A stretch of 47,412 nucleotides of DNA from an uncultured Schlesneria sp. (GTDB lineage Bacteria; Planctomycetota; Planctomycetia; Planctomycetales; Planctomycetaceae): contig CAIOKO010000027.1 in NCBI GenBank assembly GCA_903858935.1, positions 1 through 47,412 on the forward strand. Reading direction: 5' to 3'. The notes below the pieces were generated by a model that saw only the letters and a program-made list of their open reading frames with translations, was not told the DNA's origin and made no database searches. Positions 25,351 to 41,441 of the stretch are shown here, one piece after another (the first letter of the stretch is position 1; every line of letters begins with the position of its first letter). A program made the position numbers and the translations under genes.

Positions 25351-26379
25351 ATGGCAAATCCTTCAGGCCCAGTGACGACAAACCTGAGCGACAACGATGT
25401 CGAGGCCATTGATCGGCTGCGGGAACTATATGGTCGACTGAAAACAGAACTCGGACGGGTCATCATTGGACAGAATGATGTCATCGAACGACTGGCAATC
25501 TGCATGTTCGCTCGCGGGCACGGGCTATTAATGGGTGTTCCCGGTCTGGCAAAGACCTTGCTTGTCAGCAAACTCGCCGAAACCATGTCTTTAAACTTCA
25601 GCCGCATCCAATTCACACCAGATTTAATGCCGATGGACATCACGGGTACGGATATTCTTCAAGATGGGGCTGATGGCCGACGCGATTTTCAATTCATTCG
25701 CGGCCCGGTTTTTGCGAACATCGTTCTGGCAGACGAAATCAACCGGGCCCCTCCAAAGACTCAAGCTGCAATGCTCGAGGCGATGCAAGAACAGAAGGTG
25801 ACCGTCGTAGGAAAAACCTTCCGACTCGACTCACCGTTTTTCGTGCTCGCCACACAGAACCCCGTGGAGCAGGAAGGGACCTACCCCCTTCCCGAAGCAC
25901 AACTCGACCGGTTCATGTTCCTGATCGAATTGGACTATCCGTCCGAAGAGGAAGAAGTTCTGATCGCACGGACGACTACGGGAGATGCACTTCCGGAACT
26001 AAATCATCTGATGACGGCGGCTGAGATTATCGATCATCAGCATCTGGTCCGCCGAGTTCCCGTGCCAGACCATATCTACCGTTACGCCGCCAAGCTTGTG
26101 AGAAAAACGAGGCCGAAAGGGACGTCGGCACCGGCGTGGCTGAAGCCGCTGGTGGCGTGGGGAGCGGGTCCACGTGCCGTCCAGTTCTTGATCCTCGGTG
26201 CGAAAGCCAGGGCGGCCTTGCATGGCAGTTATATGGTGCGACTGGAAGACATCCACGAAGTTGCGGTTGCCGTTTTGACGCACCGGGTCATTACAACCTT
26301 CGCTGCACAAGCAGAAGGATTCGACGCGAAACAGATCGTGAAACGGTTAATTAGTGAGACGATTGAAGAACGGTCTTAG
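25351..26379 (+). CDS. MoxR-family AAA+ ATPase
   Basis: A 342-residue cytoplasmic ATPase, first gene of the long plus-strand run. Walker A is GVPGLAKT (residues 62-69), Walker B LADEINRAPPKTQAAMLEAMQE, sensor 1 ATQNPVEQEGTYPLPEAQLDRF. AGGGG about 10 bases upstream supports the start. MoxR proteins act with von Willebrand partners as chaperones that insert metals or remodel enzymes and envelope complexes; the DUF58 protein that follows 91 bases later is the usual partner. The 240-base region upstream, shared with the divergent GAF-HlyD gene, should hold the operon promoter. Confidence 0.96.
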   Translation: MANPSGPVTTNLSDNDVEAIDRLRELYGRLKTELGRVIIGQNDVIERLAICMFARGHGLLMGVPGLAKTLLVSKLAETMSLNFSRIQFTPDLMPMDITGTDILQDGADGRRDFQFIRGPVFANIVLADEINRAPPKTQAAMLEAMQEQKVTVVGKTFRLDSPFFVLATQNPVEQEGTYPLPEAQLDRFMFLIELDYPSEEEEVLIARTTTGDALPELNHLMTAAEIIDHQHLVRRVPVPDHIYRYAAKLVRKTRPKGTSAPAWLKPLVAWGAGPRAVQFLILGAKARAALHGSYMVRLEDIHEVAVAVLTHRVITTFAAQAEGFDAKQIVKRLISETIEERS

Positions 26380-26470
26380 TTGATGGTTTAAGAGAGACGG
26401 ATGCCGTCCGTTTCGATTTTCTGCAGGTCGAAATTGATCTACTGACGTGCTTCCGCTCCAGGGACAAGGC

Positions 26471-27382
26471 ATGCTTACTGATCGCCAGCCTCGAAGCTTT
26501 ATCGACGCGCAAGTCTTGTCGCGATTGGCGGGTATCCCGCTATTTGCCCGACGACCGATGCAAGGGAATGTATCAGGACGGCACGCCAGTCCGCACCGGG
26601 GATCAAGCGTTGAGTTCGCTGAATACCGCAAATACGTGCCTGGCGATGACCTTCGACGACTCGACTGGCGAGCCTACGGACGGTCCGATCGGTTCTATGT
26701 GAAAGAATTCGAAGCTGACACGAACCTGCGCTGCTGCTTTGTGCTCGATACCAGCGGGTCCATGAATTTCGGTTCAACCGGCATCACAAAGATCGAATAC
26801 GCGCGGCAAATCGCTGGAACTCTAGGGTATCTCGCCAGCCAGCAAGGAGACGCGGTGGGTCTTGCGTGCGTGGCCAATGGGATCGTGCAAAACCTGCCCC
26901 CGAAAAGGAATGCAGCACATTTAAGGCTGGTCCTGGACTTGCTTGAAAATGCAAAGCCGAAGGGAGAAACCCAACTCGCCAACGTTCTGCACGAACTGGC
27001 GGAAACGATACGTCAGAGAGCATTGATCGTCATTATTTCAGACCTGTTCATCGAACCAGAACTATTACGGGGGTGTTTCCAGCATTTGCGGTTTCGACAT
27101 CATGACGCCGCGGTATTTCATCTGCTCGATCCGCTCGAATTGAATTTTCAGTTTCGTCGACCGATGCGGTTTCTCGATATGGAAGGTGGCCCTGCAATCT
27201 TCGCAGAGCCCAATGATATTGCTGATCGATACGACAAGGCCTTGCAACAATATCTGGCTCAATTAAGACAGGTTGTGCTTGAGTCGGCAATCGATTACCA
27301 GCGGATCAGCATTGACGAAAACTACGAACAGGCATTAGTCCGCTTCCTTATCGGACGGGCTCAGGCAAAGGGGATGCGATGA
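26471..27382 (+). CDS. DUF58 von Willebrand-type protein
   Basis: A 303-residue DUF58 protein, the standard partner of MoxR. The family block YRKYVPGDDLRRLDWRAYGR lies near residues 55-75. The von Willebrand metal site DTSGS is at residues 93-97, so the MIDAS motif is intact. The ATG at 26471 has AGGGACAAGG upstream; a GTG at 26447 is an alternative. It lacks membrane segments and is probably peripheral on the cytoplasmic face, with MoxR. The stop overlaps the next start by four bases (ATGA). Confidence 0.94.
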   Translation: MLTDRQPRSFIDAQVLSRLAGIPLFARRPMQGNVSGRHASPHRGSSVEFAEYRKYVPGDDLRRLDWRAYGRSDRFYVKEFEADTNLRCCFVLDTSGSMNFGSTGITKIEYARQIAGTLGYLASQQGDAVGLACVANGIVQNLPPKRNAAHLRLVLDLLENAKPKGETQLANVLHELAETIRQRALIVIISDLFIEPELLRGCFQHLRFRHHDAAVFHLLDPLELNFQFRRPMRFLDMEGGPAIFAEPNDIADRYDKALQQYLAQLRQVVLESAIDYQRISIDENYEQALVRFLIGRAQAKGMR

Positions 27383-29379
27383 GCTTTTTGCAACCCTGGT
27401 TGCTGTGGGGCCTGCCACTAATCGCCTTACCGATCATCATCCACCTGATCAATCAGCGGCGGTTTCAGACGATCCAATGGGCAGCCATGATGTTTTTGCT
27501 GGCCGCACACCGCATGGCACGTGGCTATTCCCGATTGCGGCAATGGCTGATCATGTTATTCCGCATGCTGGCGATCGCAGGTCTGCTGTTCGCCGTCGCT
27601 CGACCTCTCGCCAGTGGTTGGCTGGGACTGGCGGCGGGAGGCCAAGCGGACACAACAATCGTACTGCTGGACCGTTCGCCCAGTATGCAGCAGCGCGGAT
27701 CAGGGACCGGTGAGTCGAAGCTGGAAACCGGCAAGAAGCAACTTGTGCAGACGCTGCAGACGCTTGGTTCGGCTCGCTGGGTCGTGATCGACAGCGTTTC
27801 CAATTCTCCACACCAGATCGATTCGCCTGCAGCGATCATGAATCTTCCAACCGCAGGGCCCGCCAGCTCACCGGCCGATCTGCCCATCATGCTTCAAGCT
27901 GCTCACGATTATGTCCGCGATAACCGATCGGGGCGAACTGAGATCTGGGTCTGTTCCGACTTGCGCGAAAACGACTGGACGGCTGAAAGCAACCGTTGGT
28001 CAACGCTGCGCGACGCCTTTCTGGAATTCCCTCAAGGAGTGCGGTTTCACTTGCTTGCTTATTCGCAGCTCCCTTCGACCAATACTTCAATCCGAGTAAC
28101 AGACGTGAAGCGACAGGCAGCAAGTGACGGTGCGGAACTGCTGGTCTCGCTTAAGATCGCTCGCGAAGGGACTGACGACCAGAAAGTCAGTATTCCGGTC
28201 GAGTTTGACATTGAGGGGGCTCGCTCGGTTCTCACTGTCGAACTCGACGGATTTTCGACCGAAGTTAAGGATCATCGCATCCCATTGGAGCGAGCACGAG
28301 AACGAGGCTGGGGTCGTGTTTCGATCCCTGCCGACGCCAATCCGGCGGACGATGACTTCTATTTCGTGTTTGACGTTCCACCTCCCCGAAAGACAATCAT
28401 CGTTGCTGAAGAGCCGCAAGTGGAAAAAACACTGCAACTTGCCGCCGCAATCCCACCGGAGCCATCTTTTGTCTGTACTGCAGATGTGATCGGGCTTGAG
28501 CAATTGCCCACGGTCGAATGGGACCTGGTCTCTTTGGTCCTCTGGCAGGCAGCACTTCCATCGGGAACAGAGGCAGAACTGCTGCAGTCGTTTGTTGAAC
28601 GTGGCGGCCAGGTTGTCTTTCTTCCACCTCGAAACCCCTCAAGTGACGAATTTTTGGGAATTCGGTGGAACGAATGGGTCAGCTCAAACGACAATATTCC
28701 ACTCGAAACATGGCGCAGCGACGGCGACCTGCTTAGCCGCACATTAAACGGCACAGCGCTTCCCGTCGGGCAACTCGAAATTCATCAATATTGCGGGCTA
28801 AGTGGTGATCACACGCCATTGGCAATACTCAAAGGGGGAGCAACGTTGCTCGCGCGAGTCCCGACCAAACGAGGGGGAGTCTATTTCTGGACGACGACCC
28901 CGGCACCTCGCGACTCGTCCCTGGCGACCGGTGGCGTCGTTTTGTACGCCTTCGTGCAACGAGCGATCTCGGCCGGAGCCGTGGTGCTTGGCAAATCCAG
29001 GCAGCTTGACGCTGGTGACGCTCAAGGGGAAATCTCGTCAACCTGGAATCCTGTTGTTGAAGGAGACCAGGGATTATCGACCGAAGCGTTATATCACCGG
29101 GGAGTTTACAGCGCAAACGACCGACTGCTGGCGGTCAATCGGCCGGCTAACGAGGACGACGCCCGTGTTTTGAATGAGTCTCGACTGGCCGAATTATTTC
29201 GTGGTTTAAACTTCGTCCGCGTTGACGATCAGGCCGGAAGCGTCAGTTCTTTGATCCAGGAAATCTGGCGAGTGTTTCTGATTGCGATGTTGATTTCGTT
29301 GATTCTTGAAGCCGTACTTTGTCTCCCCAAAGTTGCGCGAACGACGGAACCGACACGAACTGTGGGAGCCACGGCATGA
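27379..29379 (+). CDS. BatA-like membrane protein with von Willebrand domain
   Basis: A 666-residue membrane protein. The N-terminus is the BatA/aerotolerance-type domain: FLQPWLLWGLPLIALPIIIHLINQ-type first helix followed by a basic loop (residues 25-50) and a second helix (LIMLFRMLAIAGLLFAVARPL, broken here into recognisable parts). A von Willebrand domain with DRSPS at residues 98-102 keeps the MIDAS serines. Its middle is soluble and periplasmic by topology, and a last membrane helix near residues 630-650 (VFLIAMLISLILEAVL) anchors the C-terminus. It overlaps both neighbours by four bases, so three genes are coupled. Bat-type proteins span the inner membrane and are proposed to couple MoxR ATP hydrolysis to periplasmic targets. 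Confidence 0.92.
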   Translation: MSFLQPWLLWGLPLIALPIIIHLINQRRFQTIQWAAMMFLLAAHRMARGYSRLRQWLIMLFRMLAIAGLLFAVARPLASGWLGLAAGGQADTTIVLLDRSPSMQQRGSGTGESKLETGKKQLVQTLQTLGSARWVVIDSVSNSPHQIDSPAAIMNLPTAGPASSPADLPIMLQAAHDYVRDNRSGRTEIWVCSDLRENDWTAESNRWSTLRDAFLEFPQGVRFHLLAYSQLPSTNTSIRVTDVKRQAASDGAELLVSLKIAREGTDDQKVSIPVEFDIEGARSVLTVELDGFSTEVKDHRIPLERARERGWGRVSIPADANPADDDFYFVFDVPPPRKTIIVAEEPQVEKTLQLAAAIPPEPSFVCTADVIGLEQLPTVEWDLVSLVLWQAALPSGTEAELLQSFVERGGQVVFLPPRNPSSDEFLGIRWNEWVSSNDNIPLETWRSDGDLLSRTLNGTALPVGQLEIHQYCGLSGDHTPLAILKGGATLLARVPTKRGGVYFWTTTPAPRDSSLATGGVVLYAFVQRAISAGAVVLGKSRQLDAGDAQGEISSTWNPVVEGDQGLSTEALYHRGVYSANDRLLAVNRPANEDDARVLNESRLAELFRGLNFVRVDDQAGSVSSLIQEIWRVFLIAMLISLILEAVLCLPKVARTTEPTRTVGATA

Positions 29380-31592
29380 ACACCGTCCGCTCATTAACAT
29401 TTGTCTGGGCACCCTGGTCGATCATTCTTTCGTTGATCGTTATCGCCGTCACAGCAGGGCTTTGTTACGTCGCCTGGCAGCGAACCGGCTATCGTCGATC
29501 AATCGGTTCACTGGAGTTGTTGCGACTGGCGCTCGTCTCCCTGGGCGTCTTGCTGTTCAACCAGCCGGAGTGGGTTGAAGAATACCGACCGGACGACAAA
29601 CCGACGGTTGCTGTCCTTTGGGATAATTCCGCCAGCATGGAAACGAGGGACGTACCCAACAATGAAACGGCGTCGACAACTGTCAAAACCCGTCGCGAAG
29701 CGATTGCCATGCTGACCGAAACGCCCTTCTGGTCATCGCTGCAGGAACGGTTAACGGTCATCGTTCAGCCGTTTGGAACTTCTGACTCGACGTCGACGAC
29801 TCCAACGGGACGTGGCACGAACTTATATGAACCACTCGCAAGCGCTCCCCAGCGATTCAAAAATCTTCACGCAGTTGTCCTGGCGTCCGATGGAGATTGG
29901 AACGAGGGGCCGCCACCCGTTGAAGCCGCTTCAGCATTAAGGCTTAAAGGAGTTCCGGTATTTACAGTGCCAGTCGGAAGTTCGTCGCGATTGCCCGATG
30001 TCGAATTACTCAGCCTCGACTCGCCGACGTTCGGCATTACGGGGAAATCTGTACGGATTCCGTTTACTGTCGACAGCACGCTGCCGCGCGAACATGTGAC
30101 GACGATTAAGCTGATGGTCTCTGACGGCGAAGAGATCTCCAGGGAAATTCGGATCGCTCCCATGGGCCGGACCAGCGACTTCCTGATCTGGAAACCTAAA
30201 ACCACGGGCGACTATACACTATCACTCGACGTCCCCAAGCATGCGGATGAACTTGTCGCCGATAACAACAAGCTGTCAGCACCGATTGCTATTCGAGAAG
30301 AAAAGCTGCGTGTTCTGGTAATCGAGTCGGTCCCTCGCTGGGAATATCGCTACCTGAGAAATGCCCTGTCTCGCGATCCGGGTATCGAAGTTTCCTGCCT
30401 CCTGTTTCACCCGGGACTGAATAAAGCGGGTGGCGGCAACAAGGATTACATCAAACAGTTTCCCAAGGGTCTGGATGAATTATCAAAATATGACGTTGTG
30501 TTCCTGGGTGATGTGGGGCTTGAAGACGGACAACTGACCGAAGAAGACTGCCGACTGTTAAAGGGGCTTGTCGAACATCAGGCCAGTGGACTGGTCTTTA
30601 TGCCTGGCTTGCTGGGACGGCAAATGTCGCTCTCGGATACCGAACTCGGAAAACTTTGCCCCGTTATTCTCGATCCGGCTCAACCAGGGGGTTGGGGCTC
30701 GCGAACCCCAAGTCATTTTGAATTGACCGAGCTTGGACGCCGCAGCCTGCTCACAAAACTGGCGGATACACAAGATGACAATATTGAGGTCTGGGAAGGA
30801 CTTCCAGGCTTTCAATGGTATGCACCGGCACTCAAAGTGAAAGCTGGTTGTGAGGTGCTGGCGGTCCACAAGGATGTCGCTAACGAGTATGGCCGTCTTC
30901 CGCTACTGGCCACCGGTACGTATGGTGCCGGTAAAGTCCTGTTCATGGGGACCGATGGTGCGTGGCGTTGGCGAAAAGGAGTGGAAGATAAATACCACTA
31001 TCGCTTTTGGGGCCAGGTGGTACGCTGGATGGCGTATCAGCGAAACATGGCCAAGGGCGAGTCAATGCGGATGTACTATTCCCCCGAACAACCTCAGGTG
31101 CGTCAGACGATTGCATTGAGTGCAAACGTCATGGAAAAGAGTGGCGAGCCGTTACCGAAGGGGGACGTCACCGCTCGGATTGTTGCTCCGTCAGGAAAAG
31201 CCGAGACCATCCGGTTTCAGTCATCTGGCGATGAATGGGGCGCATTTGCGTCTCGCTTTACCCCGGAAGAACCCGGTAAGCACGAAGTCTTCCTGGGTTG
31301 CAAGCAGACCGGAGCAATTTTGGAAGCGTCGTTTTTCGTTCAGGGACTAGCCGTCGAACGAATCGGTCGCGCCGCTCGGCCTGAAGTCATGGAAGAGATT
31401 TCACGAGTCTCAAAAGGACAAGTGATCGGACTCGATCGATTAGAGCAAGTGCTGAAATCGCTGGCCGCGTTGCCGGAACCGTTGCCATCCGTCAGACGCG
31501 TTCAGTTGTGGTGTCATCCCATCGTCGCATCATTGTTAGTTGCGATGCTGGGGGCGTTTTGGGTAGGACGTAAAATGGTTGGTTTGATTTAA
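29376..31592 (+). CDS. Membrane von Willebrand / amidotransferase-like protein
   Basis: A 738-residue membrane protein, starting at the ATGA overlap. Two N-terminal helices (SIILSLIVIAVTAGLCYVAW; LLRLALVSLGVLLF) precede DNSAS at residues 83-87, a third intact MIDAS in a row. The mid-region contains VLVIESVPRWEYRYLRNAL followed by a class I glutamine amidotransferase-like fold common in planctomycete Bat clusters; the catalytic Cys-His pair of true amidotransferases is not evident, so it is probably structural. A beta-sandwich portion (about 560-660) and a final membrane helix (VASLLVAMLGAFWVG) complete the protein. The function in the complex is unknown. Confidence 0.88.
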   Translation: MNTVRSLTFVWAPWSIILSLIVIAVTAGLCYVAWQRTGYRRSIGSLELLRLALVSLGVLLFNQPEWVEEYRPDDKPTVAVLWDNSASMETRDVPNNETASTTVKTRREAIAMLTETPFWSSLQERLTVIVQPFGTSDSTSTTPTGRGTNLYEPLASAPQRFKNLHAVVLASDGDWNEGPPPVEAASALRLKGVPVFTVPVGSSSRLPDVELLSLDSPTFGITGKSVRIPFTVDSTLPREHVTTIKLMVSDGEEISREIRIAPMGRTSDFLIWKPKTTGDYTLSLDVPKHADELVADNNKLSAPIAIREEKLRVLVIESVPRWEYRYLRNALSRDPGIEVSCLLFHPGLNKAGGGNKDYIKQFPKGLDELSKYDVVFLGDVGLEDGQLTEEDCRLLKGLVEHQASGLVFMPGLLGRQMSLSDTELGKLCPVILDPAQPGGWGSRTPSHFELTELGRRSLLTKLADTQDDNIEVWEGLPGFQWYAPALKVKAGCEVLAVHKDVANEYGRLPLLATGTYGAGKVLFMGTDGAWRWRKGVEDKYHYRFWGQVVRWMAYQRNMAKGESMRMYYSPEQPQVRQTIALSANVMEKSGEPLPKGDVTARIVAPSGKAETIRFQSSGDEWGAFASRFTPEEPGKHEVFLGCKQTGAILEASFFVQGLAVERIGRAARPEVMEEISRVSKGQVIGLDRLEQVLKSLAALPEPLPSVRRVQLWCHPIVASLLVAMLGAFWVGRKMVGLI

Positions 31593-31747
31593 ACGGAATC
31601 AAAAGCTGCCGAACAACGCAAGCCGTGACCTCTACCGGTAACGGTTTTCTTGGACAAAGTTTGATATTTTTCAAGTAAAACACGACCGGATGATGAATCC
31701 ATCCGACATGCATTTAGAGTTCGTTTGTGTTCCAGGAGAAAGCTGAA

Positions 31748-34700
31748 ATGAGCGTTTCACAGCCGAATACCGGACTGAAGTTGCCTTCATCGCTGAAGAC
31801 GCAACTGGATGAATTCCGCCGTCGTGTCTGGACTATCAAGTCCATCGAAGCGATCTGTGGTGCTCTGTTCGGAATCTTTGTTTCCTATCTGGTCGTCTTC
31901 GGACTCGACCGGGTTATGGACACTCCGGCCTGGGCTCGTACGGCGATCTTCTTGATCGCGGTCGCGGCATGTGCCTATGTGCCGGTCTACCTGCATCGCT
32001 GGATCTGGTGCAATCGGCATCTGGAACAACTCGCCCGATTGCTCAGCCGTCGCTATCCAAGCATCGGCGATCAGATGCTGGGAGTGATCGAACTGGTTCG
32101 TAACGATCTGGAGCAGCAGCGATCACGAGCGTTGTGTGAAGCGGCCATCAACCAGGTTGCGAATGTCGCAAGCAAGAGAGACTTCACTGACGCCGTCCCC
32201 AACCCACGCCATCGGATGTGGGCTTGGATGGCTGCTGTTCCCGCCGCCGCTGCATTGCTGATACTCGCCATTTTCCCATCGGCGGCTTCAAACGCCTGGG
32301 CCAGATTTGCCGCTCCGTGGCAGCCAACGCCTCGCTATACATTTACGGAAATCGAACGTCTCGCCGACCGTGTTGTTGTTCCACACGGTGAAGCGGTGAC
32401 TATTCCCGTACAACTTTTGGAAACGTCCAGTTGGCATCCTGCACAAGGAACCGCCCAACTCGGCAGTCAAGTTCCGCTGAAAGCCGAACTGAAAGAAGGT
32501 CGCTACGAATTCACATTGGCGCCTCAAATCGACGCCGGGCGTTTTGATTTACAGATCGGCGATGCACGACAGAGAACACGGGTCGAACCAAAACTGCGTC
32601 CGGAACTGACGCACGTTGTGGCTGATATCCAATTACCGGCTTACCTGAACCGAACCCAGCCATTGCACAAGGATATTCGTGGTGGGACGGTCACAGTTGT
32701 GAACGGCAGCTCTGCCACGTTCAGCGTCACCGCTAATCGCCCTCTGGTCTCTGGCGAGTGGACGACAGCCGACCGCCCCGACGAATCGCTCGCAGTTGCT
32801 CCAAGCCCAAATCCTTTCAGTGAAACCATGTCGAGCCCCGTCATCCCAATCGATGCATCTAAGAAAGTGCAGTTTCAATGGAAAGACGAGTATGGGTTGA
32901 TGGGAAAAGAACCGCTAACAATCACGGTAAACTCTCGTGAAGACGAGGCACCGTCACTGGCTTGTGAGGATCTTCCGCGCCAGAGGGTTGTGATCGATTC
33001 GGAAACCCTAACGTTCAAAGTCCGTGCTCAAGACGATTTCGGCATTAAGGTTGTTGGTATCGAATGGAAAGGGGCCGATAAGTCCGCTGTCTCGAAATTG
33101 GCACATGGCGAACGGATTTTAGCCGCTGGAGCCAGTGAAAAAGAACTGCTGGAGCTGACAGGAACGTTCTGTGCCAAAACTCTCGACATCGAACCGCAAC
33201 CTCTTAACGTTCGATTGTTTGTTGAAGATTATTTTCCTGGCAGGTCTCGAACGTATTCGACTCCTTTCGTCTTATATGTCCTGAGTGCCGAACAGCATTC
33301 CATCTGGCTCACGGAACAATTGAGTAAATGGCACCGACAGTCCCTGGAAGTTCGTGACCGCGAAATGCAGCTGCATCACACGAACCAGGAGCTTCGCATG
33401 CTCTCGTCAGACGAGCTCGATCAACCCGACAATCGGCGAAAAATCGAAACTCAGTCAACCGCCGAACGAGCAAATGGTCGACGACTGACGGGCCTCGTTA
33501 ATGGCGGTGAAGACCTGATTCGTCAGGCGATGCGCAATCCAGAGTTCGGAGTCGGGCACCTGGAAAAGTGGGCCGAGATGCTGCAAATCTTAAAGGACAT
33601 TTCGGGGAATCGAATGCCCAATGTGGCGGACCTGTTAAAGCAGTCATCACAGGCACCTGGCATGTTGGCCAGTCAGTCACCAAAACCAAACGGGCCAACG
33701 GCAGGGCAGAATCGTGCCAGCGGATCGGGTGCTCCGCAAAAACAAGGCGAAAGCAAGCCGAAACCTCCAGTTCCAACTGTTGCTGATGGCGAATCTTCGC
33801 AAAACCCTGCCAAGAAGCAGGAAGGTGAACCCGAAGAACCGAGCAATTCCAACCCGCGACTTGGTTTGCCGGTGACGACAATTATTGCCGCCGGAAACAA
33901 CAAACCGAAGCCACCTGCTCCTGCCGCAAAGAAGCTGGACGAAGCGGTCAAAGCACAACAGGATCTGTTGGCCGAATTCGACAAGATCGCAGACGAACTG
34001 AATAAGGTTCTGGCTAATCTTGAAGGAAGCACATTGGTCAAACGATTGAAAGCCGCGTCGCGAAAGCAATACGTGGTCGCTGGTAAAATCGGTGATCAAG
34101 TGAGCGGCGCGTTCGGTTTGAAGAACAAGACCGCTGGTCCATTGAAACAGGCAATGGAAGACTTGTCGAAACAAGAAGCGGCAAGCAGCCAGGACGTTTC
34201 CATGATCATGGATGACATGCAATCGTATTTTGAACGCCGACGATTCCAACGATTCAAGACTGTTCTCGACGAAATGCGAACGCAAGACGCCATCGGCAGC
34301 TTGCGTCAACTGGGGGATGACCTGAAAGTCGAAACCGGAATGTCGATTGCCCAGTGCGAATTCTGGTCAGACACGCTGGATCGCTGGGCCGATGATCTGG
34401 TCGACCCCGCCTGCTGCGGCAAGTGCCCAGGCTGCAAATCCAAAGCCAGCCTCCCTCCGTCCGTTGTGTTGGAAGCGATGCAAATCCTCGAGGCCGAAGT
34501 CAACTTGCGAGAAGAAACCCGCGTCGCGGAACAAGCCCGCCCAGCCATCTCGGCGGCAGAGTACGGCGATCGAGCAAACCAACTGTCGAAGACTCAGGAC
34601 GAACTTTCTGATCGGGTCGCCAAGCTGACCGTTCGCATTCGCGAACTGCCTGATGGCGAAGAGGAGTTCGCCAAAGAGATCTCCCTGCTCAATCGAGTTG

Positions 34701-35038
34701 AATTGGTCATGGATGAAGCAACAGGTCTGCTGAAGAGTCCTGACACTGGTGCGCGAGCCGTCGGGGCTGAAACGGAAGCGATTGAACTTTTGCTCCAATC
34801 CAAAAAGATCAATCCCAAAGGTGGTGGCGGAGGAGGATCGAGTCCTGGCGGCGGCGGCGAAGGGACAACGAACGACTCGGCCCTGGCTTTGGTCGGATCA
34901 GGCGTCAATGACAAGGAAGTTCGCGAAGATCGCGGAATCTCTCAATCGACGGGTGAATCGGGTGCTTCGTTGCCTGAAGAATTTCGAGCCGGACTGGATG
35001 AATACTTCAATCGTCTTGAACGAGAATCGAGCAGATAG
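31748..35038 (+). CDS. Giant membrane protein of the MoxR cluster
   Basis: A 1096-residue protein. The ATG at 31748 has AGGAG nine bases upstream. Three hydrophobic segments occur in the first 190 residues (IEAICGALFGIFVSYLVVF; AIFLIAVAACAYVPVYL; AVPAAAALLILAIF). The following 400 residues look like beta-sandwich periplasmic domains (AWARFAAPWQPTPRYTFTEI; DEYGLMGKEPLTITV). From about 520 the protein becomes helical and charged, with a Pro/Lys/Gln-rich linker at about 640-720. A cysteine knuckle C889-C890-x2-C893-x2-C896 may bind metal. A Gly-rich stretch near 1030-1045 precedes the C-terminus. This is a recurring large protein of planctomycete Bat loci, similar in layout to DUF4175 proteins, but no activity is known. 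Confidence 0.85.
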   Translation: MSVSQPNTGLKLPSSLKTQLDEFRRRVWTIKSIEAICGALFGIFVSYLVVFGLDRVMDTPAWARTAIFLIAVAACAYVPVYLHRWIWCNRHLEQLARLLSRRYPSIGDQMLGVIELVRNDLEQQRSRALCEAAINQVANVASKRDFTDAVPNPRHRMWAWMAAVPAAAALLILAIFPSAASNAWARFAAPWQPTPRYTFTEIERLADRVVVPHGEAVTIPVQLLETSSWHPAQGTAQLGSQVPLKAELKEGRYEFTLAPQIDAGRFDLQIGDARQRTRVEPKLRPELTHVVADIQLPAYLNRTQPLHKDIRGGTVTVVNGSSATFSVTANRPLVSGEWTTADRPDESLAVAPSPNPFSETMSSPVIPIDASKKVQFQWKDEYGLMGKEPLTITVNSREDEAPSLACEDLPRQRVVIDSETLTFKVRAQDDFGIKVVGIEWKGADKSAVSKLAHGERILAAGASEKELLELTGTFCAKTLDIEPQPLNVRLFVEDYFPGRSRTYSTPFVLYVLSAEQHSIWLTEQLSKWHRQSLEVRDREMQLHHTNQELRMLSSDELDQPDNRRKIETQSTAERANGRRLTGLVNGGEDLIRQAMRNPEFGVGHLEKWAEMLQILKDISGNRMPNVADLLKQSSQAPGMLASQSPKPNGPTAGQNRASGSGAPQKQGESKPKPPVPTVADGESSQNPAKKQEGEPEEPSNSNPRLGLPVTTIIAAGNNKPKPPAPAAKKLDEAVKAQQDLLAEFDKIADELNKVLANLEGSTLVKRLKAASRKQYVVAGKIGDQVSGAFGLKNKTAGPLKQAMEDLSKQEAASSQDVSMIMDDMQSYFERRRFQRFKTVLDEMRTQDAIGSLRQLGDDLKVETGMSIAQCEFWSDTLDRWADDLVDPACCGKCPGCKSKASLPPSVVLEAMQILEAEVNLREETRVAEQARPAISAAEYGDRANQLSKTQDELSDRVAKLTVRIRELPDGEEEFAKEISLLNRVELVMDEATGLLKSPDTGARAVGAETEAIELLLQSKKINPKGGGGGGSSPGGGGEGTTNDSALALVGSGVNDKEVREDRGISQSTGESGASLPEEFRAGLDEYFNRLERESSR

Positions 35039-36128: not shown

Positions 36129-36130
36129 CG

Positions 36131-37153
36131 ATGATGAGACCAAGTTGGAATCGAGGGAATGATCGCGGCCAGGAACTGAGCGTTCCCTCGCTAGCCCGAC
36201 GCGCAAACGTTTGTAGCATCTTTTTCGGATTTTGCCTGACTGCCATCATGATCCAGATTCTGGGATCGTCATTCGCATGCGCCGCTCCAGATGACGTTGA
36301 AGCGGTCAAACAAGACGAACAGCAGATTAACGTCCAGTTCTTTCAGATGGACGAACAAAACTTTGATGCAAACGTCTTTCAACCCAGCGGCAACGCCAAG
36401 GCCGCACGCACACAAATTGAAACTAAACTGAAGTTGCAACTGGATGAACTCCATCGCGTTTGCGGGATCACCGATGCTCAGAAACAAAAACTGACGTTGG
36501 CCGCCAGTTCCGATATCAAGCGATTTTTCGACGACGTTGACAGGATTCGTAAGAAGGTCAAGGCGGGAAAAATCGACCAGAATGCCTGGAACAACATCTG
36601 GCAAGAGATCCAGCCTCTGCGGAACAGGCAATCGGCAGGCCTGTTTGGCGATACCTCATTCTTCGCGAAGACCGTCCGGAAGACTCTCACGGAAGAACAA
36701 ATCCAGAAGTATGACGTCGTCGTAAAGGAACGCCGTAAGTTTCGCTATCGGGCGACCCTTGAAGTTGTCGTGACAAACCTCGCGAGCACGGTCCCCTTGC
36801 GGCACACACAACACGAAGCCATCGTCAAGTTGCTTCTTGAAGAAACGCAACCACCACCAACGTTTGGCCAGTACGACCAGTATCTGGTGATGCATCAACT
36901 GGGAAAACTTGCCGAGCCCAAATTGAAACCGTTGCTTGAGGAACATCAATGGAAGCTGTTGGAAGGACAGATTCAACAATACAAGGGGATGGAACAATTC
37001 CTGATTCAAAACGGACTCATTCCTAAAGAGGACGAAGAACTGAAAGCACGAGTCACCGTCAAGAAACGAATCCCAGTTTCAAACCAGCAAGCCGACGCCG
37101 AAGAACCTGAAAATCAGACGCGAGAAAAACCTGTTCCCTGCCCCGATCCCTGA
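36131..37153 (+). CDS. Secreted helical protein, paralog family member 2
   Basis: A 340-residue exported protein starting two bases after member 1, with GGAG just upstream. The signal segment is unusually far in (residues about 27-50, IFFGFCLTAIMIQILG). The mature part shares a linear order of blocks with members 3 to 5: a helix with LHRVCGITDAQKQKLTLAA, then GLFGDTSFFAKTVRKTLTEEQIQKY, then LRHTQHEAIVKLLLEE, then HQLGKLAEPKLKPLLEEHQW and a closing QFLIQNGLI. These correspond block by block to member 3. No catalytic motif is seen. Function unknown. Confidence 0.82.
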   Translation: MMRPSWNRGNDRGQELSVPSLARRANVCSIFFGFCLTAIMIQILGSSFACAAPDDVEAVKQDEQQINVQFFQMDEQNFDANVFQPSGNAKAARTQIETKLKLQLDELHRVCGITDAQKQKLTLAASSDIKRFFDDVDRIRKKVKAGKIDQNAWNNIWQEIQPLRNRQSAGLFGDTSFFAKTVRKTLTEEQIQKYDVVVKERRKFRYRATLEVVVTNLASTVPLRHTQHEAIVKLLLEETQPPPTFGQYDQYLVMHQLGKLAEPKLKPLLEEHQWKLLEGQIQQYKGMEQFLIQNGLIPKEDEELKARVTVKKRIPVSNQQADAEEPENQTREKPVPCPDP

Positions 37154-37165
37154 ATTGAGGCTGTT

Positions 37166-38182
37166 ATGGACAAGCCACGTTTTCACTTTTTGAGACATAC
37201 AACCGCTGTCGTCGTTATTTTGATGGCGTGTTGCGCGAGCGTCCGAGCCGAGGACTTCGTACGCCAGGAAGCGGCAGTCCGCCTGCAGCAAGCTCAGATC
37301 GAGAGATTGGAAAACGGTCGGTTACTCGCCGAACAAACTCCGCGAGAGGCAAAGCTTCCTGTTATGAAACCCGTCTTTCAGGGAAATGTCTTCGTCCGTG
37401 AAGAATTCCATCACATCGATCACGTTGTATACGGAACTTCCACAATTTACGGCCAACAGATCATCGAAAATCAACTTAAAAACAAAGTCCAGCAATTAAG
37501 TTCCGAGTATGTCCTCACGGAAACTCAGCAATCAAAACTCCTGCTCGCCGGTCAGTGGGAAGCAAAACAGTTTGCGAACGACGTTGATGTGTTGCGCCAG
37601 AAATATACTTCTTCGGAGGGAGATATTGTCGAACAGCAAATCGTCGTGAAACAAGCTCAAACTCTTCAAAAGCAGCGGCGGATGTTATTTGGCAACGGTT
37701 CGTTCTTGTTGAAAGTGATGGCCAGAACGGTGACTGGCGAACAATTACTAAAATACCAGGCGGCACTCGACAACCGCCTGAGGCTTCGACATCGCTCGAA
37801 CGTTGAAGGAGCGATTCGGGATATCGAACGTCAGGTCGTCATCAAAATCTCGCAACAGGAGATGCTCGTCGAGTTGTTGATGTCGGAAATCCCCCCTCCG
37901 ACATCGGCTAACGATTACGACGAAGCGGTGGTCAAATATCAGTTCTCCCGAATCCCCGAACAGAAGGTGCGACCAATTTTTGACGAAGGCCAATGGCCTC
38001 AGGTACGCCAGACACTCGACGGATTTAACGAGTTGGAAACAGTACTCACACAACAAGGCCTGATTGAGGAGGAAGCTGCAGCAGCGCCAAAACCTGCAAC
38101 TGTCCTTCAGCAGGACAAGTTACCGACCGACACAACTGCAATTAATCGATACCGAGAGCAGCAAGACGGGAAAAAACCATGA
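37166..38182 (+). CDS. Secreted helical protein, paralog family member 3
   Basis: A 338-residue exported protein; signal segment AVVVILMACCASVRA, cut site likely before EDF. Ribosome site GAGG lies five bases before the ATG, and the gap to member 2 is 12 bases. Shared blocks are LSSEYVLTETQQSKLLLAG, MLFGNGSFLLKVMARTVTG, ISQQEMLVELLMSEIPPP, VKYQFSRIPEQKVRPIFDEG followed by QWPQVR, and LTQQGLIEEE. The aligned motif Y-x-(F/L)-S...K-x-x-P-(I/L)-F...Q-W is the best family signature. After it the operon has its only large internal gap. Confidence 0.82.
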   Translation: MDKPRFHFLRHTTAVVVILMACCASVRAEDFVRQEAAVRLQQAQIERLENGRLLAEQTPREAKLPVMKPVFQGNVFVREEFHHIDHVVYGTSTIYGQQIIENQLKNKVQQLSSEYVLTETQQSKLLLAGQWEAKQFANDVDVLRQKYTSSEGDIVEQQIVVKQAQTLQKQRRMLFGNGSFLLKVMARTVTGEQLLKYQAALDNRLRLRHRSNVEGAIRDIERQVVIKISQQEMLVELLMSEIPPPTSANDYDEAVVKYQFSRIPEQKVRPIFDEGQWPQVRQTLDGFNELETVLTQQGLIEEEAAAAPKPATVLQQDKLPTDTTAINRYREQQDGKKP

Positions 38183-38418
38183 ACAGCGGATTCAGTCATC
38201 CCCGTGCCAAGCTCTCCACCGACCTCGTGTCAGTTGTGAGCGATCCATTTCACCTGGGTTCTCTTGATCTAGTTAGCCACTCACTGCTTCCACCGACTCA
38301 AAGTCGGTGGAGAGCGTTTTCCAAGCATTGCTTCAGCGATGGCCTTGTTTTCTCTCCCCAGAAAGATCCGTCACGGAGTTACCGGCTAATGCCAGGCCAT
38401 CCATTTACTGTGTTTTGA
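38179..38418 (+). CDS. Possible small ORF in the operon gap
   Basis: A 79-codon frame whose ATG overlaps the stop of member 3 (ATGA) and which ends 12 bases before the start of member 4. The position is what one expects of a coupled gene, but the sequence has no signal peptide, no domain and an irregular composition, and it spans two alternative hairpins (38211-38315). It may be chance, a remnant, or a leader whose translation affects the hairpins. Confidence 0.25.
   Translation: MNSGFSHPRAKLSTDLVSVVSDPFHLGSLDLVSHSLLPPTQSRWRAFSKHCFSDGLVFSPQKDPSRSYRLMPGHPFTVF
38211..38315 (+). promoter_or_regulatory. Mutually exclusive hairpins inside the operon
   Basis: The segment 38302-38315 (AGTCGGTGGAGAGC) can pair in two ways: its first nine bases with the adjacent 38290-38298 (CCACCGACT, three-base loop), or 13 bases with the distant 38211-38223 (GCTCTCCACCGAC). 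Both pairings are perfect. The arrangement is like an attenuator, although it could be an old repeat insertion. No strong T-run follows. Confidence 0.5.
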
Positions 38419-38430
38419 ATCCCGATTCTC

Positions 38431-39345
38431 ATGACCAGACGCTTTCGCCACCGAACTAGAATGATGCCACTTTCGGCCATAATGTTCGCGTGCGCCTCGA
38501 TCGTTGTCGCTGATGACGACATTAAAGAAGTTGTTCCTCAGAATGCTGGCAATTTCATTCGGTTCGCCAAAGACGAGCCGTTCGATAGCTGGATGTTTCG
38601 CGGAAATCCTGGTTTTGTTCGAAAACAACTAGAAGCCAAAATCGGACCAGCGATCAACGACCTTTGCAACAAGTATTCTCTCGCAAATGTGCACCGCCCA
38701 AAATTGGAACTCGCCGCTCGCATTGATCTCCATCGATACGATGTCCGAATTGAAGAGCTACGTCGACGGTTCGAAGCCGCGATGAAAGACAAGAACGAAT
38801 TGGGACAGCATGACTCCAAAAGCGAATGGGTCATTGTTCGAAACGAAATACAGAAATATCGTGATAGCGATATACAAAATCTATTCGACGCCAATTCCTT
38901 CGTCGCTAAGTCTGCAACCAAGATCGCTGCCGACATGCAACGTCGCTCTAGCATTCACCGAATGATCAAGGAAATCGAAAACTACGTTGACTTAGAGAGA
39001 ACTCAGAAAGAAACGCTCATCACACTGCTCTCGGCGGAACCCCGCCCAACCAGAATCAATCCCGAACTTGACTTTGTTGACGTCAAATATCAGCTCTCTC
39101 AATTAACTGATTCGACGTTAAAGCCATTGTTTAACAATGATCAATGGCCACTCATACGTCATCTGCTCGAAGAGATTGAAGCGAATCGAAATTCGTTGAT
39201 GAATCAACGATTGATCGCAAGGAACTCCGAAGACGACGTCAAACGCCCGACCGTCAGCCGATATCGGCAAAGAACCCGTCCTGCCGATGCCACGACCCCC
39301 GAAAACATTCCCGATCCGATTGCTTTGAAGAAGGATGGTGAATGA
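38431..39345 (+). CDS. Secreted helical protein, paralog family member 4
   Basis: A 304-residue exported protein; signal segment MMPLSAIMFACASIVVA with likely cleavage before DDD. The start may be 38431 or the internal ATG at 38461. Blocks shared with member 3 are FRGNPGFVRKQLEAKIG at the N-terminus, LCNKYSLANVHRPKLELAA, NLFDANSFVAKSATKI, TQKETLITLLSAEPRP, VKYQLSQLTDSTLKPLFNND followed by QWPLIR, and LMNQRLIARN. It lies after the hairpin-bearing gap and ends one base before member 5. Confidence 0.82.
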   Translation: MTRRFRHRTRMMPLSAIMFACASIVVADDDIKEVVPQNAGNFIRFAKDEPFDSWMFRGNPGFVRKQLEAKIGPAINDLCNKYSLANVHRPKLELAARIDLHRYDVRIEELRRRFEAAMKDKNELGQHDSKSEWVIVRNEIQKYRDSDIQNLFDANSFVAKSATKIAADMQRRSSIHRMIKEIENYVDLERTQKETLITLLSAEPRPTRINPELDFVDVKYQLSQLTDSTLKPLFNNDQWPLIRHLLEEIEANRNSLMNQRLIARNSEDDVKRPTVSRYRQRTRPADATTPENIPDPIALKKDGE

Positions 39346-39346
39346 C

Positions 39347-40282
39347 ATGAACTGTTTTGTGCGATCATTCCCAATCCAACTTCTGGTACTACTTTCAGGA
39401 GTTGTATATTCCTCTGTTTTCGCTGCTGAGGATGACGTTGTTAATGATTGCCTGGACGCACAGCTTACGAAGGACGGCGTAAATGCAGCCAAGATCCAAA
39501 AGGTCTTTGCAATCAGGAATCAGGCGATCGTGCCAATCGGTGACAGAGCCGCAATCCAGTTTGAAAAAATGATTTTCCGTCAGGACGGAAGCGCGGCGAT
39601 TGGAGACCTATGGGTCAAAGCTGAGCGGGAACAGGTGATTAATTCTCTCGACCGCACCGTTCAGTTGACGGACAATCAAAAGCGAAGATTCGATCTGGCC
39701 GGCGAAATCGATCGTCGTCGGTTTCTCTCTCAAGTTAAAGCCGTAAGTCAAATGATTCGTGGCGGATTGGACTTTACTGAGGAAGATCAAAAAGCAGTCA
39801 GGCTTTTGCAGGCGAAAGCGACTACGGGACTCCTTGGCCCAGGATCGTTTTTTATAAAGTCGATTCCGACCATTCTCGCCAACAATCAACTTGCGTTACT
39901 CAACGAACGTAAACGTTCCATTCACAGCGGCTTAATCAGGAATGCCTTACGTGACTTTGAAGCGAGATTGACGCTGAGTGAACAACAGCGAAAGTCCCTC
40001 ACTCAGATCATGCTTGATGAGATTCCGTATGACCCGGCGAGCGAGAACGGTGAATTACTTGCCGCAAGGTCAGAACGAATCATGATGATGTACCGACTCT
40101 CCTGTTTTGCCAACGAAAAAATCGAATCGTTATTTGACCCGGTCCAATGGCAGAAGGTGCGCCCAATGCTTGAGGAATGCTACCATTATAAAGAATATCT
40201 GATTGAGCGAGGCTTGCTCGACCCCGATGCGGACGTTGTAGAGGCTGACCAACCCGCGATTCGAATGAAGGAACCGAAATGA
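39347..40282 (+). CDS. Secreted helical protein, paralog family member 5
   Basis: A 311-residue exported protein. The ATG at 39347 is one base after the stop of member 4; a start at 39335 would overlap it. Signal segment is IQLLVLLSGVVYSSVFA. Shared blocks are VQLTDNQKRRFDLAGEID, GLLGPGSFFIKSIPTILANN, LSEQQRKSLTQIMLDEIP, MYRLSCFANEKIESLFDPV followed by QWQKVR, and YLIERGLLDPD. Its stop overlaps the toroid protein start by four bases, which ties the paralog set to that gene. Confidence 0.82.
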   Translation: MNCFVRSFPIQLLVLLSGVVYSSVFAAEDDVVNDCLDAQLTKDGVNAAKIQKVFAIRNQAIVPIGDRAAIQFEKMIFRQDGSAAIGDLWVKAEREQVINSLDRTVQLTDNQKRRFDLAGEIDRRRFLSQVKAVSQMIRGGLDFTEEDQKAVRLLQAKATTGLLGPGSFFIKSIPTILANNQLALLNERKRSIHSGLIRNALRDFEARLTLSEQQRKSLTQIMLDEIPYDPASENGELLAARSERIMMMYRLSCFANEKIESLFDPVQWQKVRPMLEECYHYKEYLIERGLLDPDADVVEADQPAIRMKEPK

Positions 40283-41361
40283 ATAAGACAATCCTCTTTT
40301 CGATTCACATTTTGCGTGTGCTGATGCTTTCACTTTTGGCGTTCGGGATAACGAGTTCTCGCTCGTTCGCTCAGACCCCTTCTGTCCGCTTCGGCGAAGT
40401 TGTCCCTCGTGATGTTCGTGAAATCTACGAACGTGGCCTGCAATTCCTTGTCACCACACAGAATGAAGCGGGGGACTGGAAAGGGGGCGGCGAACAGGGA
40501 CCGGGAGTCACAGGTTTGTGCCTGATGGTGCTCCTCGCCAGCGGTGAAGACCCGAACTTTGGCCTCTATAGCAACAATGTTCGTCGAGCCCTGCGCAATA
40601 TTATCTCTGGGCAGGACGCGGGCACCGGCTTTTACGGTGGCCATCTGGGGCATAGCAGCATGTACAACCACGGATTCGCCATGCTCGGACTGGCGGAAGC
40701 TTATGGAGCGGTCGACGATCGCAACTTGTGGACCGGAAACGAACCGAACCGCCGATCGATTGGCCAGTCATTAGAATTAGCTGTCCGTGCCGCGATCACC
40801 TCTCAAAAGAAGAACTCGTTCGGTGGATGGCGATATTCTCCTGATGGAAACGACGCAGACACATCTGTCAGTGGTGCCGTTCTGGTTGGATTGCTCGCGG
40901 CAAGAAACGCTGGAATCGAAGTCCCTGACGAAGTGATCGACAAGTCGATCAACTACTTCACCAAAATGACATCTCCCTCCGGCCAAGTCGGTTATTCTGG
41001 CGGGTTCGGCGGATTTGACGAATCGTTCGCACGGATTTCAATCGCCACCCTGGTCTATTCGGTCTCTCGACGAAAAGACCTCTCCCAGTACAAGGCGACT
41101 CTCAGCTATCTGACTCAACGACTGGAAAATGTCTCGCAGCAAAACTGGCCCGAATACACGCGATATTATCAGGCCCAGGCGTTGTTTCAGGGTGACGTCG
41201 AAGCGTGGGAAAAGTGGAACAAGCTGCTCGTCCGTCATCTCAAGCAGATCCAACTGGCAGACGGAAGTATCCCCGGCCAGATGGGGGTGACACTGGGAAC
41301 TTCAATGTCCTGCCTCGCATTGGCTTTGAATTACCGCTTTTTGCCGATTTACGAAAGATAA
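40279..41361 (+). CDS. Secreted alpha/alpha-toroid (squalene cyclase-like) protein
   Basis: A 360-residue exported protein with signal segment VLMLSLLAFGITSSRSFA. The mature part has prenyltransferase/squalene-oxidase repeats: GLQFLVTTQNEAGDWKGG, FGGWRYSPDGNDADTSVSG and VGYSGGFGGFDESF. True squalene-hopene cyclases carry DxDD; here the corresponding stretch is DADTS, lacking the second of the paired aspartates, and at 360 residues the protein has only one toroid of the two in a cyclase. Planctomycetes have many such proteins of unknown function; it is more likely a binding or structural protein than a terpene cyclase. The AAGGAA ribosome site lies inside member 5. Confidence 0.87.
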   Translation: MNKTILFSIHILRVLMLSLLAFGITSSRSFAQTPSVRFGEVVPRDVREIYERGLQFLVTTQNEAGDWKGGGEQGPGVTGLCLMVLLASGEDPNFGLYSNNVRRALRNIISGQDAGTGFYGGHLGHSSMYNHGFAMLGLAEAYGAVDDRNLWTGNEPNRRSIGQSLELAVRAAITSQKKNSFGGWRYSPDGNDADTSVSGAVLVGLLAARNAGIEVPDEVIDKSINYFTKMTSPSGQVGYSGGFGGFDESFARISIATLVYSVSRRKDLSQYKATLSYLTQRLENVSQQNWPEYTRYYQAQALFQGDVEAWEKWNKLLVRHLKQIQLADGSIPGQMGVTLGTSMSCLALALNYRFLPIYER

Positions 41362-41395: not shown

Positions 41396-41441
41396 GCCTG
41401 AAAAAAAGAGAGATGGCCCCCTTTATTGCCGTCCTGGAAGG

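Follow-up and report, generated by a model that had tools for sequence, protein, structure and literature searches.

The stretch of planctomycete DNA analyzed here (the window) comprises the 47,412 nucleotides at positions 1 to 47,412 of contig CAIOKO010000027.1, from an uncultured Schlesneria sp. with a genome of 7.93 Mb in 280 contigs. It contains an operon encoding a MoxR-type ATPase, a DUF58 protein, two membrane proteins assigned to the von Willebrand factor A (vWA) type, a giant membrane protein (GIANT), five secreted paralogs (PAR1 to PAR5), a toroid protein (SQH), and a thioredoxin-domain protein (TRX). The comparison of this cluster with its relatives indicates that GIANT very probably represents a family in which cysteine and selenocysteine (Sec) replace one another, with some lineages encoding the latter by TGA at the position of Cys900. 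With this residue as a lead, a previously anonymous set of genes may be approached as a redox machine that can be put to the test.

Cysteine and Probable Selenocysteine in the Giant Membrane Protein

GIANT is encoded on the forward strand at 31748..35038, with a probable ATG at 31748 in an open reading frame (ORF) listed from 31727, and has 1,103 amino acids, which form three transmembrane helices, beta domains, and a coiled coil. A sample of at least 79 GIANT loci was assembled by a profile scan and peptide patterns, with L192 being left out of the counts because it lies on the same contig as L112. All the loci listed are found in planctomycete-labelled records, except for one labelled 'bacterium', the names of the metagenome-assembled genomes (MAGs) being those of their submitters. 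The GIANT of the window shares 97% identity with the proteins of two uncultured Schlesneria MAGs, which places its source among the planctomycetes of this group.

In the window, Cys900 is encoded by TGC (34424..34426, forward strand) within the motif GKCPGCKSK. In 22 of the 79 loci, one of which (L155) is on an otherwise noisy contig, the reading frame contains a single in-frame TGA at this codon, which results in GGT*PGG versus GKCPGC. The TGA of L193 is also in the Cys900 column and that of L195 is in a rearranged motif, which brings the total to 24 distinct TGA loci, with 23 at Cys900; two unrelated places that matched the pattern used for the TGA motif (L115 and L117) were not counted. Cys900 is present in 37 of the 38 aligned full-length TGA-free proteins, with L144 as the exception, and is the only near-invariant cysteine of GIANT, given that the next most conserved is found in 31 of the 38. 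Single splits in the same frame occur ten times in the other genes of the operon and are not recurrent, being located at tandem-gene boundaries, in isolated copies, on the noisy contig of L155 or in the decayed copy of L151, while the only other splits of this kind in GIANT are two TAG codons in the decayed L151. The reading of TGA as tryptophan or glycine was rejected, as the other operon genes have no recurrent TGA, and so was the binding of a metal by CCGKCPGC, of which the Sec forms keep only one position.

The distribution of the machinery for selenocysteine agrees with this interpretation. The searches covered the genomes behind 22 TGA forms and 28 other loci, 50 of the 79 in total, with the genomes of L193 and L195 lying outside the set. 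The selA gene is above its cut-off in all 22 TGA genomes versus 10 of the 28 others (Fisher test, 8e-7), and selB in 19 of the 22, with fragments in two more, versus 11 of the 28. A tRNA-Sec of at least 63 bits was recovered from 17 of the 22 TGA genomes, including that of L109, which is without selB, versus 11 of the 28 others, by a search that scored 67 candidates per genome and may have missed some. Any component of the machinery is found in 22/22 versus 11/28 genomes (Fisher p 2e-6). The genome of the window itself has no selB over the cut-off, which fits its Cys-form GIANT.

A quick tree of 81 GIANT sequences, with SH-aLRT (approximate likelihood-ratio) support, midpoint rooting, and the Cys/Sec columns kept, places ten changes of the Sec label, at least eight of them on supported branches (L151 and L155 were left out, and L193 and L195 form long branches). 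Cys900 is thus the likely active site, because evolution repeatedly swaps cysteine and selenocysteine at this position.

The codons that follow the TGA are also constrained. The Ser-Leu pair is written AGT-TTG in 23/23 TGA forms versus only four of the 47 Cys-class loci, a class in which L147 is still counted owing to a stray cysteine, whereas, at a control motif of these genes, the TGA forms have AGC in 19/21 and CTG or CTC in 20/21. Locus L193, which was missed by the codon pattern, has AGT-CTG, and in the sister pairs L125/L126, L114/L109, and L132/L112, it is the Cys member that departs from the fixed codons. The aligned TGA forms have a common hairpin of 18 nucleotides (nt), with a 3-nt loop (GTT) 22 nt downstream of the TGA, and its mean energy is -8.89 kcal/mol, versus -2.33 kcal/mol in the Cys forms, with only 4.8% of the synonymous versions, on average, being as stable. 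An energy of -7.5 kcal/mol or lower is reached in 17/23 TGA forms (L195 included, L193 excluded) versus 2/47 Cys forms. The rules for the selenocysteine insertion sequence (SECIS) that are set out in part of PMC13188914 include a loop of 3-9 nt with G in its first two positions, a distance of 16-37 nt from the UGA, a stem of 4-16 base pairs (bp), and an energy of at most -7.5 kcal/mol. The loop, stem, and spacing agree with these rules in the 23 aligned sequences, and the energy does so in 17 of them. The stem is paired in 95.8% of the cells of the alignment versus 92.2% in shuffles, and only 5 of 500 shuffles attain its covariation score.

The predicted model of GIANT (mean predicted local distance difference test, pLDDT, of 74) consists of membrane helices, beta domains at residues 215-519, further helices, a disordered linker, and a coiled coil. 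Cys900 lies within a low-confidence loop (893-907) between the helices 874-892 and 911-936, and, judging by the charges that flank the membrane segments, this region is probably outside the cytoplasm. A Foldseek search at E<=0.001 returned 132 matches, and the best 50 are mostly tandem beta-sandwich arrays with TM-scores (template modeling scores) of 0.32 or less, so the likeness to complement, alpha-2-macroglobulin, and immunoglobulin receptors was taken to be generic. No redox fold was recognized in GIANT by Pfam, NCBIfam, the structure model, or Foldseek. In the lineages that would use selenocysteine, ordinary gene calling would cut approximately the last 200 residues from the protein.

Linked Presence of the Thioredoxin Domain

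The gene for TRX (P0012; approximately 1,000 amino acids) is the last of the cluster (41693..44731, forward strand), and its product is probably secreted, given a hydrophobic N-terminal segment at residues 93-115 of the listed ORF. The last 150 residues form a ResA/TlpA-like thioredoxin/redoxin domain with the motif WCGPC (Pfam AhpC-TSA, 92 bits; Redoxin, 87.7 bits), in which the CGPC active site (Cys903 and Cys906) is encoded at 44399..44410 of the forward strand. The nearest NCBIfam models are ResA, StoA, and DsbE, the best being ResA (NF002854) with 102.3 bits, below its 170-bit cut-off.

The WCxPC motif of TRX is found in all 51 loci in which GIANT has Cys or Sec (34/34 Cys and 17/17 Sec) and is missing from all six loci in which GIANT has neither. 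In L161 and in the genome of L150, the TRX homologue stops before the thioredoxin domain, and in the genome of L135, the domain is kept, with FWASWCGPC being replaced by FWSAAVQPS; the homologue of L135 and that of L150 are on another contig of the same genome. In L199-L201, the C-terminus of the gene that follows SQH resembles only the stretch that precedes the thioredoxin domain, and no WCxPC motif is present in the ORFs of at least 280 residues in these 20-kb stretches. The count left out L192, L151, and the four loci in which a contig end truncates the TRX gene (L085, L097, L133, and L147). Of the six rows lacking Cys/Sec, five (L199, L200, L201, L135, and L150) were filled in by hand, as were the labels of L147 and of the loci that the motif pattern did not capture.

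Given this joint absence of the Cys/Sec residue and the thioredoxin CxxC, TRX is the likely partner of GIANT, and the fact that WCxPC is present or absent together with the residue of GIANT supports a thiol/selenol relay outside the cytoplasm. The coupling of the two proteins appears quite probable. With midpoint rooting, the tree is equally compatible with both features having been gained together in the main clade and with their having been lost together.

Conservation of the Cluster

The neighborhood of GIANT is highly conserved. PAR1, PAR2, and SQH are all present in 50 of the 53 loci with at least 6 kb of sequence after GIANT (the misses being L139, L141, and L151), and MoxR, DUF58, BatA, and vWA are all present in 43 of the 48 loci with at least 9 kb before it. 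A TRX homologue follows SQH in 49 of the 50 relatives with at least 1.5 kb in that place (L124 being the miss), and its ORF starts between 336 bases before and 453 bases after the end of SQH. Within 2.5 kb outside the segment from MoxR to TRX, no further family is common to more than six of the 49 loci before it or more than three of the 51 after it. The gene order points to a core of nine genes (MoxR, DUF58, BatA, vWA, GIANT, PAR1, PAR2, SQH, and TRX), which would represent a planctomycete variant of the Bat-type operon. Among cultured species, the cluster is present in Bythopirellula polymerisocia (L120) and Aquisphaera insulae (L153).

In a sample of 392 genomes of the phylum, in which the GIANT and PAR searches scored the best few candidates per genome, full-length GIANT (more than 700 bits) is found in 15, and the 12 genomes with a PAR at E<1e-8 are all among these; five other genomes have marginal PAR matches (E 9e-5 to 8e-4). 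Within the genus, PAR and GIANT occur together in 13 of 15 genomes, and both are absent from the other two. The proposal of the initial annotation, that the genes constitute one functional unit, is supported by the gene order (50/53 and 43/48 loci) and by the presence of GIANT in all the genomes with a PAR at E<1e-8. The same annotation had regarded the free occurrence of the PARs without the MoxR genes as evidence against such a unit, and the outcome is mixed: free copies do exist, both in the genome of the window and in G022, but all 20 PAR-positive genomes carry GIANT.

A number of loci depart from the usual arrangement. The cluster is decaying in both loci of G008 (L056 and L151): in L151 (G008 C32; a Schlesneria MAG), GIANT has TAG and TAA stops and SQH is split by TAG. 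In another genus group (L194, L196, L197, and L198), GIANT, SQH, and TRX are divergent from or apart from the MoxR operon, and three of these four loci have a long PAR1-like gene beside MoxR. One MAG (JACQFH01) has two copies of the operon, L108 and L144, one being a TGA form and the other without Cys/Sec, which may reflect either duplication or a mixed bin.

The Secreted Helical Proteins

The five PAR genes are all located on the forward strand. PAR1 (P0006; 35106..36128) encodes a predicted secreted protein with a conserved cysteine, Cys123, and four LTxxQ-like motifs, and PAR2 (P0007; 36131..37153) encodes a helical protein with Cys111, and is the core second PAR. These are followed by three expansion copies, that is, PAR3 (P0008; 37166..38182), which is without the cysteine, PAR4 (P0011; 38431..39345), which has no LTxxQ motif, and PAR5 (P0009; 39335..40282), the gene of which overlaps that of PAR4. 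Every PAR, like SQH, has one N-terminal hydrophobic segment.

These proteins had been described as five tandem paralogs that share a block order ending in K-x-x-P-L-F...Q-W. Their kinship is confirmed by phmmer and by profiles, but the block is loose, with only Q and W being invariant in the alignment. In a set of nine sequences, PAR2 to PAR5 match one another with phmmer E values of 8e-6 to 3e-34, while PAR1 matches PAR2 at E 1.5e-7 and the other PARs at 0.017 or worse, and the PAR1 family profile (A4) matches that of PAR2 (A3) with 98.7% probability (E 3e-16). By these sequence scores, all five PARs are homologous beyond chance, PAR1 distantly. The number five holds for the window, but is specific to its lineage: two PARs are the usual number, found in 35 of the 53 loci in which 6 kb or more follow GIANT, with a range of 0-8, which is why the five copies are interpreted as a local expansion. 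Copy numbers refer to ORF pieces, so a split copy, as in L097, counts twice.

The motif L[TS]xxQ occurs 73 times in the PAR1 family versus 4.4 times expected by shuffling (17-fold), and 79 times in the PAR2 family versus 14.4 expected (5-fold). None of the five PARs of the window matches the LTxxQ family of CpxP/Spy in Pfam (PF07813), and this family is likewise absent from those listed for the relatives (25 of 41 and 17 of 17). The predicted model of PAR2 is all-helical (mean pLDDT 83), and Foldseek found nothing in the PDB at E<=0.001, with several weak matches to CnrX (TM-score by target of approximately 0.5, E 4 to 6). The names retrieved for the PARs by Pfam, NCBIfam, and PDB sequence searches were rejected, being at chance level only.

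The single conserved cysteine of PAR1 is present in 37 of 38 sequences and that of PAR2 in 43 of 65, with at least 13 of the 22 losses being in expansion copies, and each of these residues is located directly ahead of the first LTxxQ motif. When one PAR1 per locus is considered, the cysteine is found in 58 of 66 loci and in 20 of 20 TGA-form loci. In comparison with three close relatives, the ratio of nonsynonymous to synonymous substitution (dN/dS) is 0.07-0.41 in the PARs versus 0.02-0.08 in MoxR, DUF58, BatA, vWA, GIANT, and SQH, and the PARs thus look like a variable periphery rather than the core, because they evolve fastest.

A free-standing PAR1-like gene is found in the genome of the window itself (L043:9542-10615; G000 C180), where it follows a gene that encodes a CSGCH motif of the cytochrome kind, and single PAR1-like copies that resemble it are present in G001, G002, G004, and G005. 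In G022, a member of the family with 15 PAR hits, PAR-domain genes are unaccompanied by the other operon genes on 11 of the 12 contigs examined (L066-L071, L073-L076, and L082), and some of them are in ORFs of 500-1,050 residues. Internal TGA marks on PAR matches were rejected as selenocysteine, given that the match overruns the gene's own stop in the cases compared (G001 C214 and C261, two in G004 C179, and one in G015). In L101, a 1,003-residue ORF with a PAR2-like match of 92 bits (9538-12546) overlaps and follows the end of the TRX ORF.

Remaining Genes and Limits of the Unit

The initial annotation listed MoxR, DUF58, two membrane proteins, the giant protein, five secreted proteins, and the toroid protein, and all eleven genes are indeed on the forward strand, at 25351-41361. 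The MoxR-type AAA+ ATPase (25351..26379; Pfam AAA_3, 209.6 bits; AAA_lid_2, 51.7 bits) has the motifs GVPGLAKT and ADEINR, presumably Walker A and Walker B. The DUF58 protein (26447..27382; Pfam DUF58, 150.8 bits) is without a membrane segment, and its DTSGS motif is presumably of the metal ion-dependent adhesion site (MIDAS) kind. The gene of the BatA-like membrane protein (27379..29379), which has a DRSPS motif, overlaps that of DUF58 by 4 bases, and its N-terminus matches Pfam BatA (69.9 bits) and TIGR02226 (77.6 bits). It is overlapped, in turn, by the gene for the vWA-type membrane protein (29376..31592), which has a probable ATG at 29376 in an ORF listed from 29319, a DNSAS motif, and three hydrophobic segments, and is kept in the relatives. 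Of the two proteins described as membrane von Willebrand proteins, Pfam names the first by its BatA N-terminus, and the second owes its vWA label to its motif and position, with no Pfam vWA match. The number of hydrophobic segments is three or four in each of BatA, vWA, and GIANT.

The SQH gene (40279..41361, forward strand) encodes a secreted alpha/alpha-toroid protein that is 55-95% identical to 45 relatives, and both points made about it previously proved correct: it overlaps the fifth PAR by 4 bases, and its fold is squalene-cyclase-like by profile. In the PDB, the family profile matches lanosterol synthase at E 1.7e-4 and squalene-hopene cyclase at E 3.6e-3, and the protein is below the curated cut-offs for Pfam SQHop_cyclase (17.3 of 26.1 bits) and TIGR01787 (16.3 of 322.7 bits). 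The cyclase motif is DxDD and that of SQH is DxDTS, and there is no ground for naming the protein a cyclase.

Of three further claims, those on tight spacing and on a unit that ends at 41361 needed correction, and that on a single terminator at 41365 is not borne out. The spacing is broken by a 248-bp gap (38183-38430), which resembles the intergenic DNA of L083 and L084 and in which no PAR remnant was found; in L083, L084, and L085, the matching interval contains an additional paralog. A terminator-like hairpin followed by T7 (41365..41387, forward strand; -12.8 kcal/mol, z -2.66) stands between SQH and TRX and folds well, but is absent from the list of the consensus scan, which gave another hairpin on the forward strand in the gap between MoxR and DUF58 (26394-26414). 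The unit does not end at 41361, as the next gene (TRX) belongs to it in the relatives. The consensus scan found 37 terminator-like sites versus a mean of 21.6 in shuffles, and promoter-like sites number two versus a mean of 10.1; no promoter is claimed because these sites are fewer than in the shuffles.

Palindromic intergenic DNA is found both in the gap at 38183-38430 and at 41440-41690 (CCACCGACTCAAAGTCGGTGG, GCATCCCTCCGGGATGC), and at the latter place, SQH runs straight into TRX in most relatives. A divergent gene upstream of MoxR (22913-25108, reverse strand) has HlyD and GAF matches; a family in this place, possibly that of the window gene, is common to four relatives, including L083-L085.

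Proposed Mechanism and Alternative Explanations

It appears moderately likely that the cluster is a variant of the Bat-type MoxR/vWA operon with a thiol/selenol relay between TRX and GIANT. TRX would exchange electrons with the thiol or selenol of GIANT outside the cytoplasm, and GIANT would act on the disulfide or oxidized thiol of a partner, for which the nearest candidates are Cys123 of PAR1 and Cys111 of PAR2. In the cytoplasm, MoxR and DUF58 may use ATP to remodel the membrane complex of BatA, vWA, and GIANT, which would open or reset the relay; ATP-driven remodeling is known from other MoxR/vWA pairs. The PARs would act as helical adaptors of the LTxxQ type or would bind clients, and SQH would be a toroid scaffold that is as constrained as the motor. 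As for its purpose, the system would most likely serve the quality control of thiols in the cell envelope, or assembly there that depends on the redox state. The full version of this scheme, an ATP-driven, membrane-spanning redox machine in which the MoxR/vWA motor gates a relay from the CGPC of TRX through the Cys/Sec of GIANT to the cysteines of PAR1 and PAR2, is put forward only tentatively, at somewhat less than an even chance.

A number of observations weigh against this interpretation. The PAR1 cysteine is absent from eight loci, of which three (L161, L144, and L147) have lost the GIANT motif and five retain the GIANT cysteine, while the PAR2 cysteine, found in 50 of 60 loci and 18 of 19 TGA forms, is absent from the other ten, yet is kept in L161. 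The PAR step of the relay is weak because of these exceptions, and the cysteines are retained as candidate partners only. The loci without Cys/Sec represent just two or three independent events, given that L150 and L161 are kin and L199-L201 are one family; the gene that these last three loci have after SQH gives no phmmer match to TRX at 1e-3 and is not recognizable as TRX by score. In phylogeny-aware pairs of Sec form and machinery, with labels typed in from the searches and L114 positive on two selA fragments, two or three of six agree and none disagree, which is too few for significance, and the 22 named TGA-form records are all MAGs. The covariation of the hairpin is slight, with one pair changed on both sides, a result reached in 125 of 500 shuffles; in the PGGK-type lineages, of which L096 was folded, a longer alternative hairpin is the minimum-energy fold, and the hairpin of L195 is weak (-5.7). 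MoxR is missing upstream in five of the 48 loci (L122, L138, L139, L151, and L158). In Leptospira, the deletion of the Bat genes produced no oxidative phenotype, as reported in PMC3557215.

The repeated interchange of Sec and Cys, and the absence of the thioredoxin CxxC exactly where GIANT has neither, point to redox chemistry as the core of the system rather than a side feature, and this is what counts against a plain Bat-type chaperone operon, which would assemble an envelope or respiratory complex, with the PARs as clients or adaptors, SQH as a scaffold, and the Cys/Sec as incidental. Such an operon is rather unlikely, even if the MoxR, DUF58, and BatA families are present in a conserved order, the PARs have a several-fold higher rate of evolution than the other proteins, which would suit clients or adaptors, and a GIANT without Cys/Sec exists in L135, L144, L150, L161, and L199-L201. 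The model of the initial annotation, in which the MoxR/vWA complex matures or positions a layered set of helical proteins, is of this kind and is neither demonstrated nor contradicted by the analysis. A selenol peroxidase or disulfide reductase is still less probable. In this case, TRX would reduce GIANT, GIANT would reduce peroxides or oxidized envelope thiols, and MoxR/vWA would do no more than regulate, for which the likeness of the TRX domain to ResA, StoA, and DsbE, its CGPC, the 'aerotolerance' name of BatA, and the single near-invariant cysteine of GIANT may be cited, but GIANT has no recognized redox fold and WCGPC favors disulfide exchange over peroxidase chemistry. That TGA is a real stop, with gene fission having split GIANT into two polypeptides in these lineages, would account for the presence of exactly one stop codon between the two frames. 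This is highly improbable, considering that every one of the 24 loci has TGA as the stop, that it falls on the Cys codon in 23 and that the frame is always the same, with selA in 22/22 genomes searched and synonymous codons fixed within a hairpin at the right distance. The relay between TRX and GIANT is the preferred explanation.

Comparison with Known Systems

Bat-type MoxR/vWA operons are widespread and share the gene order of the cluster, with BatC, a tetratricopeptide repeat (TPR) protein, and BatD as further members. The cluster has MoxR, DUF58, the N-terminal anchor of BatA (PF07584), and a second membrane vWA-type protein in common with these operons, but the Pfam hits of its genes include neither a TPR protein (BatC) nor BatD, and GIANT (Sec/Cys), the PARs, the toroid SQH, and the thioredoxin-domain TRX are found in their place. 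The ternary conflict systems described in part of PMC7159879 (eLife 2020) also combine an AAA+ MoxR with a vWA partner, and are present in planctomycetes too, but their third components in that account (VMAP, iSTAND, FtsH, and beta-propeller) do not turn up in the Pfam results for the cluster, the components of which are membrane-bound or secreted. The bpMoxR match of MoxR is weak (36.7 bits) and below its AAA_3 match.

The secreted thioredoxins ResA, TlpA, and DsbE share the C-terminal WCGPC domain with TRX, which differs from them in being fused to approximately 860 residues without a Pfam match and fixed in this operon; on its domain matches, TRX is a thioredoxin-domain protein, and is not filed as ResA. 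The PARs resemble the LTxxQ proteins of the CpxP/Spy/CnrX kind in their all-helical model, N-terminal hydrophobic segment, and enriched LTxxQ-like motifs, but the PARs of the window have no match to that family. The profile of SQH finds structures of the squalene-hopene cyclase fold, and SQH differs in being a single small domain with DxDTS.

Planctomycetes use selenocysteine, as reported in part of PMC4807772, and the inventory of prokaryotic selenoproteins in Table 1 of PMC13188914 comprises 119 families. GIANT shares with known prokaryotic selenoproteins a Sec at a conserved Cys position, a hairpin like the bacterial SECIS (bSECIS), and the existence of both Sec and Cys homologues, but differs in having no thioredoxin fold around the Sec and in being a membrane protein of approximately 1,100 residues in a MoxR operon. 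It is absent from that table, no such protein appears in the available part of PMC12013277, no NCBIfam model was matched at E<=0.1 by the two Sec forms compared, and no paper describing the cluster or its selenoprotein was found in the open-licence literature. It is concluded that GIANT is undescribed as a Sec/Cys family, as set apart by the table of PMC13188914, the candidate table of PMC4807772 not having been compared. GIANT would thus add a selenoprotein family to the 2026 inventory and, if the proposed machine is real, would represent, within the literature searched, the first selenoprotein in a MoxR/vWA machine and a new kind of energized thiol chemistry in the cell envelope.

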